Assembly: GCA_028284265.1 (NCBI GenBank)
Contig: JANQRZ010000004.1
Span: 124,001 to 188,000, forward strand
Origin: Rhodothermales bacterium
GTDB lineage: Bacteria > Bacteroidota > Rhodothermia > Rhodothermales > JANQRZ01
DNA: 64,000 nucleotides
Direction: 5' to 3'
Each line of letters opens with the position of its first letter. Positions within the stretch are counted from its first letter, which is position 1. A model generated the notes under the pieces. That model saw nothing but the letters and a program-made list of their open reading frames with translations, did no database searches and had not been told where the DNA came from. The position numbers and the translations under genes are program-made. Shown here piece after piece: positions 34,879 through 39,365 of the stretch.

Positions 34879-34883
34879 GAGTC

Positions 34884-34925
34884 AGAGGACAGTAGGCAGA
34901 GGACAGTAGGCAGAGGGCAGTGAGC
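34884..34925. repeat. 3 x 14-nt tandem repeat (two 7-nt subunits each) abutting a start codon
   Basis: The unit AGAGGACAGTAGGC occurs exactly at 34884-34897 and 34898-34911, with a variant AGAGGGCAGTGAGC at 34912-34925. The array starts 5 bp upstream of the CPBP start codon, where a ribosome site would be expected. Confidence 0.9.
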
Positions 34926-34959
34926 AGAATAGGCGCGGCGTCGAAAATACGGTGTGCGG

Positions 34960-35062: not shown

Positions 35063-36157
35063 TCACGCTGCCGTTCCCACCGCTTCGCCGACGGAAGCAA
35101 ACCCGTCTCGTTCCAGCAACCGGATGAGACCCCGGTTGATTCGGCGGATGAGGCCGGGGCCTTCGTAGACCAGCCCGGTATAGAGTTCGACGAGCGATGC
35201 TCCGGCGCGAATCTTCCGGTACGCCGTCTCCGCCGAGTCCACCCCGCCGACCCCGATGATAGGAATGCGGCCTCCGGTTCGGCGGTAGAGATGGCGGACG
35301 AGCGCCGTAGAGCGCTCGGCGAGAGGCCGACCGCTCAGGCCGCCGCGTCCGATCTCTTTCAGACGCGCTCCGTCCGTGCGCAGGCTGGAGCGATCTGACG
35401 CCGTGTTCGTCGCCACGAATCCTGTGATGCCATGACCGAGGGCGAGGTCGATGAGTTCATCGACCGGGCCGGGGTCGAACGACACCTCCGCGGGTGGCGA
35501 GAGCTTGACGAGGACAGGCACTGCTAGGCCGAGTGCGTCTCGCTCGTTCATCACAGCAGTGAGGAGGCCGTCGAAGGCGGCTGGCTCCTCGAAGGTCTTG
35601 CCCTCGGCAGTGTTGGGGCACGAGACGTTGAGGGCGACGTAGTCCGCGAGTGGCGCGAGACGGCGGAAGCTGTAGAGGAAGTCCTCGGTTGCTGTGTCGC
35701 CGAGGATCGCTGGGTCGTGCGTCTTGGCGAGGTTGATGCCGAGTGGAATCGAGCGCGAGGTGTCGCGCAGGTGCTCGGCGACAGCGTCTGCTCCCTCGTT
35801 GTTCAGTCCCATCCGGTTGACGAGCGCCCGGTCCTCCGGCAAGCGGAACGCACGCGGTGTTGGGTTCCCGTCACTCGGCCTAGCCGTCACCGAGCCGACT
35901 TCGGCGAACCCAAACCCGAGCGCCGCCCATGCCCCGACGAGCGCGGCGTTCTTGTCGAACCCTGCCGCCAGTCCGACCGGGTTGGCGAACTCGACGCCCC
36001 ACAGTCGTTGCCCGAGTGCCGCATCTTCGAAACGAAGCGGACGGAGGAGCGCCGGAGCTGTCTGTGCCAGCCGCGCGGCCCGGACCGCCGCATGGTGCGC
36101 TGCCTCCGCGTCGAGCCGGAAGAGGAGCGGACGGAGATATCGGTAGGCAGAAGGCAG
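35063..36157 (-). CDS. pyrD: dihydroorotate dehydrogenase (quinone-type), no canonical start codon
   Basis: About 364 residues if started at CTG 36157. The frame is open from there and reads YRYLRPLLFRLDAEAAHHAA (36145 onward), then NPVGLAAGFDKNA, the FMN-site motif. VGSVTARPSDGNPTPRAFRL, RMGLNNEG, LGINLAKTHD, ALNVSCPN and IGVGGVDSAETAYRKIRAGA follow. These are class 2 DHODH motifs; the Ser in NVSCPN is the catalytic base. The enzyme oxidises dihydroorotate at the inner membrane. No ATG, GTG or TTG occurs in frame between the BamA-like gene and GTG 35890, which lies too far inside. The native start appears to have been replaced by the GGCAGAA repeat. Confidence 0.88.
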   Translation of the reverse strand: MPSAYRYLRPLLFRLDAEAAHHAAVRAARLAQTAPALLRPLRFEDAALGQRLWGVEFANPVGLAAGFDKNAALVGAWAALGFGFAEVGSVTARPSDGNPTPRAFRLPEDRALVNRMGLNNEGADAVAEHLRDTSRSIPLGINLAKTHDPAILGDTATEDFLYSFRRLAPLADYVALNVSCPNTAEGKTFEEPAAFDGLLTAVMNERDALGLAVPVLVKLSPPAEVSFDPGPVDELIDLALGHGITGFVATNTASDRSSLRTDGARLKEIGRGGLSGRPLAERSTALVRHLYRRTGGRIPIIGVGGVDSAETAYRKIRAGASLVELYTGLVYEGPGLIRRINRGLIRLLERDGFASVGEAVGTAA

Positions 36158-36230
36158 AAGGCAGAAGGCAGCGAGCGGGTAGTCAAAATACGACCACCGC
36201 TCACTGCCTTCTGAACGCTGCTCGCTGGTC
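36146..36230. repeat. 7-nt tandem repeat (GGCAGAA) within a hairpin, at the 5' end of pyrD
   Basis: GGCAGAA occurs three times in a row (36146-36166), followed by GGCAGCG. The segment 36162-36178 pairs with 36197-36213 over 17 bp with one mismatch, leaving an 18-nt loop. The element fills the gap between the stop of the beta-barrel fusion (36231) and the first conserved codon of pyrD (36145). Confidence 0.85.
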
Positions 36231-39200
36231 CTACCAGCCCGGCGAGAAGTTGAGGCCCCACACCGTCGGCGTGCCCTGCCGCGAGAACGGGACGGCGTAG
36301 TAGACTTCGAGGATCAGCGCCCCGAGGACGTTGATGCGGGCCGACGCCCCGGCGCTATAGACCGGCTCGGCATTGGAAAATGAGCTACCGAAGTTGAGTT
36401 CTTCGCGCTGATCGTCGAAGCCCAGGATGTACCCCGTCTCGCCCCATGCCATGCCTGCGTCGGCGAAGAGCGTGAGTTCGGTCGGGAGATAGGGGAAGTT
36501 GATGAGGCCGAACTGGCTCGTACCGAAAAATGGGAGCCTGATTTCAGCACTTGCCACGCCGATCCTACTTCCGAAGAGGCGGTCGGTCAAGAAGTCCGCA
36601 TCGGCCGAGGTGAGTGTCGAGGAGCGGTAGCCACGCACCAGTGTGCCGTAGCCGAGGTAGAGGGGGAAAAGCTCCCCGTTCTCAGCGTCCGATCCGTAGC
36701 GCCCGTAGTGCAGCGCGCGGGCAGCAAGCGTGAACGGCTTGGCATAGATGTACCGCCGGTAGTCAGCGGTGGCGGTGAAGTAGTTCAGCGATCCAGCAGT
36801 GGCGTCCAGTCCGAAGCGGTAGCGCCCGCCGCGTACTGGTGATGTGAAGCCGAAGAACGAATAGTCCCCCACATACGCTCCGCCTGCCTCGGCGAGATGG
36901 AAGGTCGGAAGGTCCACATCCAGCCCCTCGCGGTCGACGCGCACGCGGCTTCCGTCGAACGAGATGTTGTCGAACTCGATGCCGTACCCGATGCGGCGGT
37001 AGCCCGCATTTCCTTCAAATCGTCGGGTCTGAGAAAGCGGAAAGCTGGCAAGACCCGCTACCTGCGTGAGGTAGATGCGCTGGTAGTAGCGCGTCAGGTT
37101 TGGGGTGTCATCGTCTCGGTCGATGTAGACCTGAAGGAACGGAATGTGCGAGACGGTCCCGCCCCAGTTGAGGCGGCGGCGCTGGTTGAGGTAGAACACC
37201 TGCCCGCCGATGTCCTTGAACGAGCCGTTGGCCTGGATGGTCGCGCCGACGATGTTGTTGCCGAGCACGTCCGAGAACCGCATCGCTATGCCGCCGCCCA
37301 CACCGAAGCCGTAGTACGGGTCGTAGCCCGCACCAACCGTCGGCTGGGTCACGAAGTCGAGGCCGAGCTTCGGCTTGTAGGCGGCGTCGGGGAAGTCGCG
37401 GGTGTCCGGCAGGCCGCTGCTTTTGTCGGCGAGGTAGCCATCGACCTTGCTCCGGCTGAGGGCGTCCACCGGCGGTAGCAACCCGGCGAGGGCGATACCG
37501 CCCTCTTCCACCGGGGCGATGGGGCTAGCGTCCGTCAGCGGTGTGCCCTGCGCCTCATTCAGGTCAAGCGTGTAGACGTTATAGCTCTGCGCCTCGAACA
37601 CCGAGAACATGACCGTACCCGATTGGGCTGCGACGGTCAGTGTCGGCGAGAGATCGGTGATGCCGCTGACACCGGTGGCGATGTCGGTCACTTGGAAGAC
37701 TTCGCCCGAAGCGAGGGCCGTACGGTAGACGTTCGAGAACCCGCCTTGGTCAGCGACGAAGTAGACGCTCTCGCCGTCCGGGCTGAACTGCGGATTGATG
37801 TGCTTGGCCCCCTCGAAGAGCGAGAGGACCTGGATCTCGCTCGTCCCGAGGTCGAATAGCGCGAGGCGCGAAGCCGCTGTTGCGATCCGGTCGAACGACG
37901 TGCCCGGTCCCCGGTCGGTGGCGAAGGCGAGCATCTGGCCGTCGGGACTCCACGCAGGCTGGAGGTCCATGTAGCGGTCGTTCGTAAGCTGCCGCGCTGT
38001 GCCGCCCTCGACGTCTACGAGGTAGAGGTCGGACAGGCCGCCCTTGATGCCGACAAAAGCGATCTGCCGCCCGTCGGGGCTCCACGCCGGGTCTTTGATC
38101 GCGCCGATGTCGGTGACGCGGATGCGGCGCTCGATCTCGCGCGTGCCCACGTCGAGCACCGCGATTTCATTGTCGCCCTCAACGAAAACGACGAAGGCGA
38201 ATTTCTGCCCGTCGGGGCTCCACGTCCCGGCGGAGTTGATGAACCGGAGCGCGTCGAGATGCCCGTCGCTCGACACATCGCCGAGCTTCTTGAGCACCTC
38301 GCCTGTGCGTGCGTCGGCGAGGAAGAGATCGATCCCGAAGAGGTCTTGGTCCGAGAGGTACGCCACGTAGCGCCCGTCCGGGCTGACCACCGGCGAGACG
38401 TTAACGTTGCCGCCGTCGAGTTCGCGGGCGAGGAGTCGACGCCCGGCCATTTCCGTTACGCCGAGTGAGTCGAGCCGGGCTTCCAGCACGGCGATGTCGA
38501 AGCGGCCCTCGTTGATGTACGGCGGGGCCTCCATGTCTTGCATGAACGGGGCGTAGGTCTCGGCCACCTGCCGCCCCCATCGTGCGCCGAGCGAGTCCGG
38601 CGTCAGCCCCGTCACCGAGACAATGGCCGAGTCGAGCGGCATCGCCAGCGAGGTCTTGAAGAGGTTCACCGCGCCCTCGTCGCCGTAGGTCCCGCCGACG
38701 TAGGCCCAGAATGCTTGGCCGTAGCGGTAGGGGAAGTAGCGTGGGTCGCGCGACAGTTGTTCCAGTGTCGGGAAGGCGTCGCGGAGGACAGCGTCGCGCA
38801 TCCACATCGCTGTGTGTGCATCCTCGCGCCCGACCGAGAGGTATTCGGCGAAGCCCTCGACGATCCAGAGCGGCAACTGGATGAAGTTGGCGAACTGGCC
38901 GTTCCGCTGAGACATGTCGTACTGGAACTGGTGAACCAGTTCGTGCCCGAGGACATGGTCGGTGTCTGCATACGATCCCGTCAGCGGCATCACGATGCGT
39001 TGCTTGAAGCCTTCTGTCACGCCGCCCGTGCCCTGCCCGATCTGACCACTGATGACGTTCGTCTGCTGGAAGTCCGCGTCGTCCGCATAGAGCACGATGG
39101 CCTTGCGCTCGTCGAACTCATGGTCGAGGATGGTCGAGAGGCGGGTGTACCAGCGCTCGGCCATGCGGGCAGCGTCGCGCACGCCCTCTTCTGCCTCGGG

Positions 39201-39365
39201 GTAGTAGTAGATGTCGAAGTGCTCGGTCTTGAGCACACGGAAGTCGAAGTCGTCGTACTGGACCTTGTTGCGACCGAAATACTGGGCCACTGCCTCCTGC
39301 ACGGGAGCAGCGAAGAAGAGGGCGACCACAAAAAGAATGATAGACCGAAGGGCCGAGGCGTTCAT
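36231..39365 (-). CDS. exported fusion: HEXXH metallopeptidase domain + TolB-like propeller + BamA-like beta-barrel
   Basis: A 1044-residue protein with a signal peptide (MNASALRSIILFVVALFFAAPVQEAVAQ). Residues 35-260 look like a peptidase-MA gluzincin: LGHELVHQFQYD (HEXXH at 141-145) and LWIVEGFAEYLS with a candidate third ligand Glu170. Residues 300-620 carry PD40 propeller repeats (VSPDGRYVAYLS, WSPDGQKFAFVV, WSPDGRQIAFVG, WSPDGQMLAFAT, FSPDGESVYFVA). Residues 670-1044 are an Omp85/BamA-type barrel (LYLGYGTLVRGYRSS, FADAGMAWGE, terminal NFSPGW). It is probably an outer-membrane protein. It is upstream of pyrD on the same strand. Function is unknown. Confidence 0.85.
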   Translation of the reverse strand: MNASALRSIILFVVALFFAAPVQEAVAQYFGRNKVQYDDFDFRVLKTEHFDIYYYPEAEEGVRDAARMAERWYTRLSTILDHEFDERKAIVLYADDADFQQTNVISGQIGQGTGGVTEGFKQRIVMPLTGSYADTDHVLGHELVHQFQYDMSQRNGQFANFIQLPLWIVEGFAEYLSVGREDAHTAMWMRDAVLRDAFPTLEQLSRDPRYFPYRYGQAFWAYVGGTYGDEGAVNLFKTSLAMPLDSAIVSVTGLTPDSLGARWGRQVAETYAPFMQDMEAPPYINEGRFDIAVLEARLDSLGVTEMAGRRLLARELDGGNVNVSPVVSPDGRYVAYLSDQDLFGIDLFLADARTGEVLKKLGDVSSDGHLDALRFINSAGTWSPDGQKFAFVVFVEGDNEIAVLDVGTREIERRIRVTDIGAIKDPAWSPDGRQIAFVGIKGGLSDLYLVDVEGGTARQLTNDRYMDLQPAWSPDGQMLAFATDRGPGTSFDRIATAASRLALFDLGTSEIQVLSLFEGAKHINPQFSPDGESVYFVADQGGFSNVYRTALASGEVFQVTDIATGVSGITDLSPTLTVAAQSGTVMFSVFEAQSYNVYTLDLNEAQGTPLTDASPIAPVEEGGIALAGLLPPVDALSRSKVDGYLADKSSGLPDTRDFPDAAYKPKLGLDFVTQPTVGAGYDPYYGFGVGGGIAMRFSDVLGNNIVGATIQANGSFKDIGGQVFYLNQRRRLNWGGTVSHIPFLQVYIDRDDDTPNLTRYYQRIYLTQVAGLASFPLSQTRRFEGNAGYRRIGYGIEFDNISFDGSRVRVDREGLDVDLPTFHLAEAGGAYVGDYSFFGFTSPVRGGRYRFGLDATAGSLNYFTATADYRRYIYAKPFTLAARALHYGRYGSDAENGELFPLYLGYGTLVRGYRSSTLTSADADFLTDRLFGSRIGVASAEIRLPFFGTSQFGLINFPYLPTELTLFADAGMAWGETGYILGFDDQREELNFGSSFSNAEPVYSAGASARINVLGALILEVYYAVPFSRQGTPTVWGLNFSPGW

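Follow-up and report, generated by a model that had tools for sequence, protein, structure and literature searches.

A pyrD gene without a canonical start codon in a Rhodothermales bacterium, with a putative near-cognate start inside a heptamer array

The window, that is, the whole stretch of 64,000 nucleotides analysed here from a Rhodothermales bacterium (genome G000), carries pyrD on its minus strand, where its conserved coding region (first conserved Tyr codon to stop) spans 35063..36145 according to Pfam and NCBIfam matches. Upstream of it on the same strand lies a gene for a protein with a TolB-like propeller and a BamA-like barrel (36231..39365; TIGR02800 and TIGR03303, below cut-off), which ends at TAG 36233-36231, and the spacer between the two genes (36146..36230, minus strand) folds as one hairpin (-49.0 kcal/mol, z -7.1). 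The pyrD product matches Pfam PF01180 with 259 bits and matches the family models of class 2 dihydroorotate dehydrogenase (DHODH) over their full length and above the curated cut-off (TIGR01036, 361 bits, cut-off 200; NF003652, 400 bits, cut-off 267). The N-terminal extension that forms the membrane/quinone part is present as approximately 44 residues ahead of the PF01180 match, and these residues align to 1f76 and others. Given these clear family-model matches, we file the protein as a putative quinone-dependent class 2 DHODH with an atypical catalytic residue: in place of the class 2 catalytic Ser (NxSSPN) it has Cys (NVSCPN). The replacement of this Ser by the class 1 residue, contained in NVSCPNTAEGKTFEE (within 35063-36145), is seen in 93 of the 94 relatives in which the motif was found. 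Such Ser-to-Cys exceptions have been described in fungal class 2 DHODH, and some of these enzymes work without oxygen (PMC8520639). PF01180 was matched once in the whole G000 genome, by pyrD, making it the sole DHODH gene; the second intact pyrD that an earlier sequence-only reading of this DNA had considered is thus not there. An open pyrE-like frame is present; that reading had described pyrE as intact.

The TIGR01036 model starts exactly at Tyr 36145, which is where the conserved N-terminus had been placed, directly after a repeat. This repeat is a heptamer array (36145..36171, minus strand; TRF: period 7, 3.9 copies, 100% matches) that reads CTGCCTT on the coding strand and AGGCAGA on the forward strand and reaches into the first conserved codon. 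Over the 45 nt before Tyr, lag-7 identity is 0.66 versus 0.20-0.29 at other lags, a value equalled by 0 of 2000 shuffles. The CTGCCTT unit occurs at three places in the genome. A second heptamer array, with a period of 14 (2 x 7), lies in the window at 34883..34928 on the minus strand and stops 4 nt before ATG 34878, the start codon of the next gene, which encodes a CPBP-family protein.

The pyrD frame (minus strand) runs without interruption from 36313, a position within the upstream gene, down to the stop codon at 35063, and not one of the 56 codons preceding Tyr 36145 is ATG, GTG or TTG. The first canonical start in the frame is GTG at 35888..35890 (minus strand), and a start there would cut off the conserved N-terminus together with the FMN-binding AAGFDKN segment. 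The sequence-only reading had described precisely this, a pyrD without ATG, GTG or TTG ahead of GTG 35890 and with a frame open into the previous gene, and both descriptions hold at each coordinate. A stop-free stretch of 56 codons without a canonical start is not rare when taken alone (approximately 5% of shuffles); here the missing start is meaningful because relatives carry ATG directly before Tyr and because the sister species also lacks one.

In this sister species (G001, 84% identical), pyrD is again without a canonical start, its frame is closed by a stop 22 codons upstream, and the 86-nt spacer before pyrD contains no ATG, GTG or TTG in any frame. These observations bear on the three options that had been offered for translation of pyrD, namely a rare start, read-on or re-initiation, and a newly broken gene. 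Read-on, with translation entering the open frame from a start farther upstream, could draw on the G000 frame being open to 36313, but it faces 56 codons without a canonical start, and stops close the frame in G001 and other relatives; it is contradicted in G001, and we consider it extremely improbable. If pyrD were broken and the strain took its pyrimidines from outside, the missing canonical start would be accounted for. However, dN is 0.10 and dS 0.73 between the G000 and G001 genes (360 codons), the first 11 residues from Tyr onward are identical, and the comparison points to strong purifying selection across the whole gene; moreover, an open pyrE-like frame is present and several lineages are in the same state, leaving a broken gene very unlikely. 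The rare start is supported as the best reading of the three. An assembly error hiding an ATG, which had also been raised, is unlikely, since G001 and the single-contig genome G012 share the state of G000 and the 27-bp array is short. The findings in G001 likewise make it unlikely that a start is hidden by a miscounted repeat.

Across the 78 Rhodothermales genomes surveyed, the conserved Tyr is usually preceded immediately by ATG and sometimes by GTG or TTG. ATG, GTG and TTG are absent within six codons of Tyr in five of the 78 (G000, G001, G012, G046, and G071). The codons present instead are CTG (-2) and ATC (-5) in G012, CTG (-1) in G046, whose frame is closed by a stop at -6, and ATT (-1) in G071; in addition, G039 combines CTG at -1 with GTG at -6. 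Both G000 and G001 have CTG at codon -4, a shared position that may be due to chance, since CTG recurs in every array unit. The state without any of these starts takes at least four changes on the pyrD tree, which shows that the canonical pyrD start was lost repeatedly, in about four lineages. A period-7 array enters the Tyr codon in each of the five genomes and in G039, and lag-7 identity exceeds that of shuffles (p <= 0.01) in all genomes with a lost or shifted start, including G039. G032, G072, and G013 show background lag-7 identity, and the values for G059, G053, and G070 lie in between; these genomes have kept ATG or GTG. Since G070 and G053 combine a moderately elevated period-7 identity with a retained ATG, the array alone is no predictor of start loss. 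The DHODH gene is single in G000, G001, G046, and G039. The comparison with relatives thus supports the proposal that a repeat occupies the start position of pyrD.

The absence of a usable start appears to be particular to pyrD. Start codons were compared in syntenic DNA of seven genomes, comprising 172 gene instances with homologs, with flags judged by eye and no formal rate; among the 26 flags raised, only the four pyrD genes were without a usable start, and no convincing non-canonical start besides pyrD was found among the approximately 170 gene instances. By eye, the other flags were antisense or shadow ORFs, or alignments that extend past a canonical start into its leader. As a positive control we used infC, the gene for IF3, which is known for its rare AUU, AUC or AUA start, carries a Shine-Dalgarno-like sequence and is subject to a known autoregulatory loop. 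In our genomes, infC has a conserved N-terminus without a canonical start and a rare codon at one fixed place, ATC in G000, G001, G002, and G012 and ATA in G059 and G071. The conserved ATC or ATA start is found at L256 (G000:C8:178758) and at L260, L262, L263, L264, and L265, and a GGAG-like sequence precedes it in G000 and G002. pyrD resembles infC, which in G000 has ATC at the expected place, in that a near-cognate codon would be the normal start. It differs in that its near-cognate codon is conserved neither in kind nor in place, and in showing neither a GGAG-like or other Shine-Dalgarno-like sequence ahead of the start nor an autoregulatory loop.

Between 36313 and residue 25 of G000 pyrD, the only in-frame near-cognate codon (CTG, ATT, ATC or ATA) is CTG 36157-36155 (36155..36157, minus strand), four codons before Tyr, confirming the earlier statement that this CTG is in frame. 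With no ATG, GTG or TTG at its conserved N-terminus and a near-cognate codon in frame, pyrD has the features of a near-cognate start gene. On balance, our results favor a model whereby pyrD is functional and its translation starts at a near-cognate codon, most probably CTG 36157 within the heptamer array. In this model, the ancestral ATG before Tyr would have been replaced as the pyrimidine-rich array, a leader element found next to many start codons in this lineage, extended or turned over across that site. Initiation at CTG 36157 would yield the product fMet-PSAYRYLRPLLF and would be independent of Shine-Dalgarno pairing. Unless other features help, PyrD output would be expected to be low because CUG is weak in E. 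coli and the initiator tRNA is of the normal kind. The output from CUG in E. coli is 0.86% of that from AUG, and CUG accounts for 0.024% of bacterial starts (PMC11497404). A relaxed M1-type initiator tRNA was not found; the anticodon stem is normal and G-C-rich, so that relaxed CUG recognition is not expected. A search for 16S rRNA gave no match in the G000 assembly. Alternatively, translation might begin at another non-AUG codon near Tyr (GCC 36148 or similar), or on a leaderless mRNA from near the Tyr codon. Position -1 is the ancestral start position, occupied by GCC in G000 and GTC in G001; however, neither codon is one base from AUG, and three relatives without ATG hold CTG, CTG or ATT at exactly this position, so that we regard such a start as distinctly unlikely.

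The spacer hairpin has arms at 36162-36178 and 36197-36213 that are 94% complementary, the 3' arm being the heptamer array, and similar hairpins precede pyrD in G001, G002, G039, G046, and others. Its loop holds TATTTTGA (36183..36190, minus strand), a TAnnTTyG-like motif and candidate -7 promoter element based on its counterparts in relatives (TATCTTCG in G001 and TAGCTTCG in G002) and on motif enrichment: TA[GT][CT]TT is found upstream of genes 20 times in forward orientation versus 6 in reverse and 5.3 in shuffled sequence. More generally, a TAnnTTCG-like motif is enriched upstream of genes in G000, G001, and G002, several copies lying 30-40 nt upstream of the start, and it may be the lineage's -7 promoter element. 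With such promoter activity, the mRNA would begin in the hairpin loop and its leader would probably be the unstructured, C/U-rich 3' arm, for which a fold of -1.3 kcal/mol is calculated if transcription starts in the loop, while in read-through RNA the pyrD start would be buried in the -49 kcal/mol hairpin. A Shine-Dalgarno signal is absent in the lineage (8/113 versus 15/113 in the control interval), and leaders are C+T-rich (65% in -10..-1). In agreement with this, Shine-Dalgarno sequences are known to be missing in Bacteroidetes (PMC6847099).

The hairpin might also act in termination-reinitiation by placing stop and start close to each other, so that ribosomes ending at TAG 36233 would reach the pyrD start and resume there at a non-AUG codon. 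G000, G001, G002, and the f12 genomes share both the upstream gene and the hairpin, and the pyrD start sits at the 3' foot of the hairpin. Nevertheless, the distance from stop to start is about 75-85 nt, the burial of the start in read-through mRNA and the promoter-like motif in the loop both speak against this mechanism, and G012 is without a canonical start though the same hairpin is absent; we therefore think reinitiation unlikely. Enteric bacteria control pyrC and pyrD in the leader by switching the transcript start, with a hairpin at the ribosome-binding site hiding the Shine-Dalgarno sequence. Here, too, a hairpin adjoins the pyrD start, but there is no Shine-Dalgarno sequence and no sign of nucleotide-dependent control.

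Phase variation or a collapsed repeat could likewise conceal a start, because a heptamer shifts the frame by one: an extra unit in G000 would put a spacer TTG or GTG (e.g., the TTG in TATTTTGAC) in frame with pyrD, and the assembly would then represent the off state or have lost a unit. Arrays do trouble assembly in this genome, in which contig ends C3, C5 (L330), C17, and C21 lie within long CTGCCCT arrays and the longest arrays probably broke the assembly. On the other hand, reads easily span the 27-bp array at pyrD, the TTG overlaps the promoter-like motif, the G001 spacer offers no ATG, GTG or TTG in any frame, and G046 has an in-frame stop six codons up, making this explanation quite improbable.

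Returning to initiation at CTG 36157, if it does occur, an entire lineage would express a central biosynthetic gene from a start of approximately 1% of AUG efficiency (as in E. coli), and, with a leader that lacks a Shine-Dalgarno sequence, start selection in bacteria without such sequences would become directly testable. pyrD would also provide a concrete case in which repeat turnover erased a start codon without killing the gene. Our results further suggest that pyrD would be truncated or missed by annotation pipelines that accept no starts other than ATG, GTG, and TTG.

Heptamer arrays are not confined to pyrD; in G000 and G001 they form a class spread over the whole genome. The array pattern CYGYCYT x 3 also matches in controls, and only the large excess in G000 (76 matches, control 18), G001 (303, control 68), and G071 (228, control 38) was used; seven other genomes were near control level. 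The prevailing unit depends on the species, CTGCCCT or CTGCCTT in G000 and CTGTCCT or CCGTCCT in G001. In these two genomes, 32 arrays are followed by a coding sequence, and for 22 of them a canonical start lies between -12 and +13 nt relative to the array end, with the pyrimidine-rich strand as the coding one. Most arrays stop 0-13 nt short of a start codon. The cysteine desulfurase gene of G000 and its G001 ortholog carry arrays at an equal place with different units, and the same holds for pyrD. At the cysteine desulfurase loci (L348 and L224, minus strand 19581, in G000; L267 in G001), the start beside the array is GTG in G000 and ATG in G001 and G002; the GTG is a milder form of the start erosion at pyrD. 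In two G001 genes (L319 and L327), a GTG start lies inside the array, and in the G001 lipoprotein gene L317 (minus strand, array end 1595) the hydrophobic stretch of the signal peptide, VWRVALLPSVFCLLSSGC, is encoded by the array. It is tempting to speculate that start-anchored arrays are a self-renewing leader element that supplies GTG and CTG starts and signal-peptide stretches and undergoes concerted turnover within a species, orthologous leaders holding place and period while the unit changes; the pyrD start would then have been handed over repeatedly and PyrD output would depend on near-cognate initiation. We hold this broader reading only tentatively.

Similar elements are known. The TAACTGA heptamers of Beggiatoaceae, Cyanobacteria, and some Bacteroidetes most often end one or a few nt before a start (MacGregor 2015, PMC4679880). 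Like these, our arrays are 7-bp direct repeats in spacers that are oriented toward the start and end beside start codons, and in both cases the genes mostly have no ribosome-binding site. They differ in that the units here are C/T-rich and species-specific (CTGCCCT, CTGCCTT, CTGTCCT, CCGTCCT), and in that the pyrD array makes up one hairpin arm and takes the place of the start codon. Judged by sequence, the arrays are therefore like the TAACTGA type in position and period and are not members of it by unit. The short tandemly repeated repetitive (STRR) heptamers of cyanobacteria, which are dispersed, degenerate 7-bp arrays in spacers, also resemble the arrays by description. Thus start-adjacent heptamers (TAACTGA) and weak starts of the infC type are already known kinds, while the apparently new features are arrays that recurrently replace the start of one gene and a species-specific turnover of units at conserved places. 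Finally, we note that at L322 in G001 (plus strand, array end 1509) the nearest ATG and the lipobox are in different frames, one heptamer apart, and that this gene could be switched by slippage.
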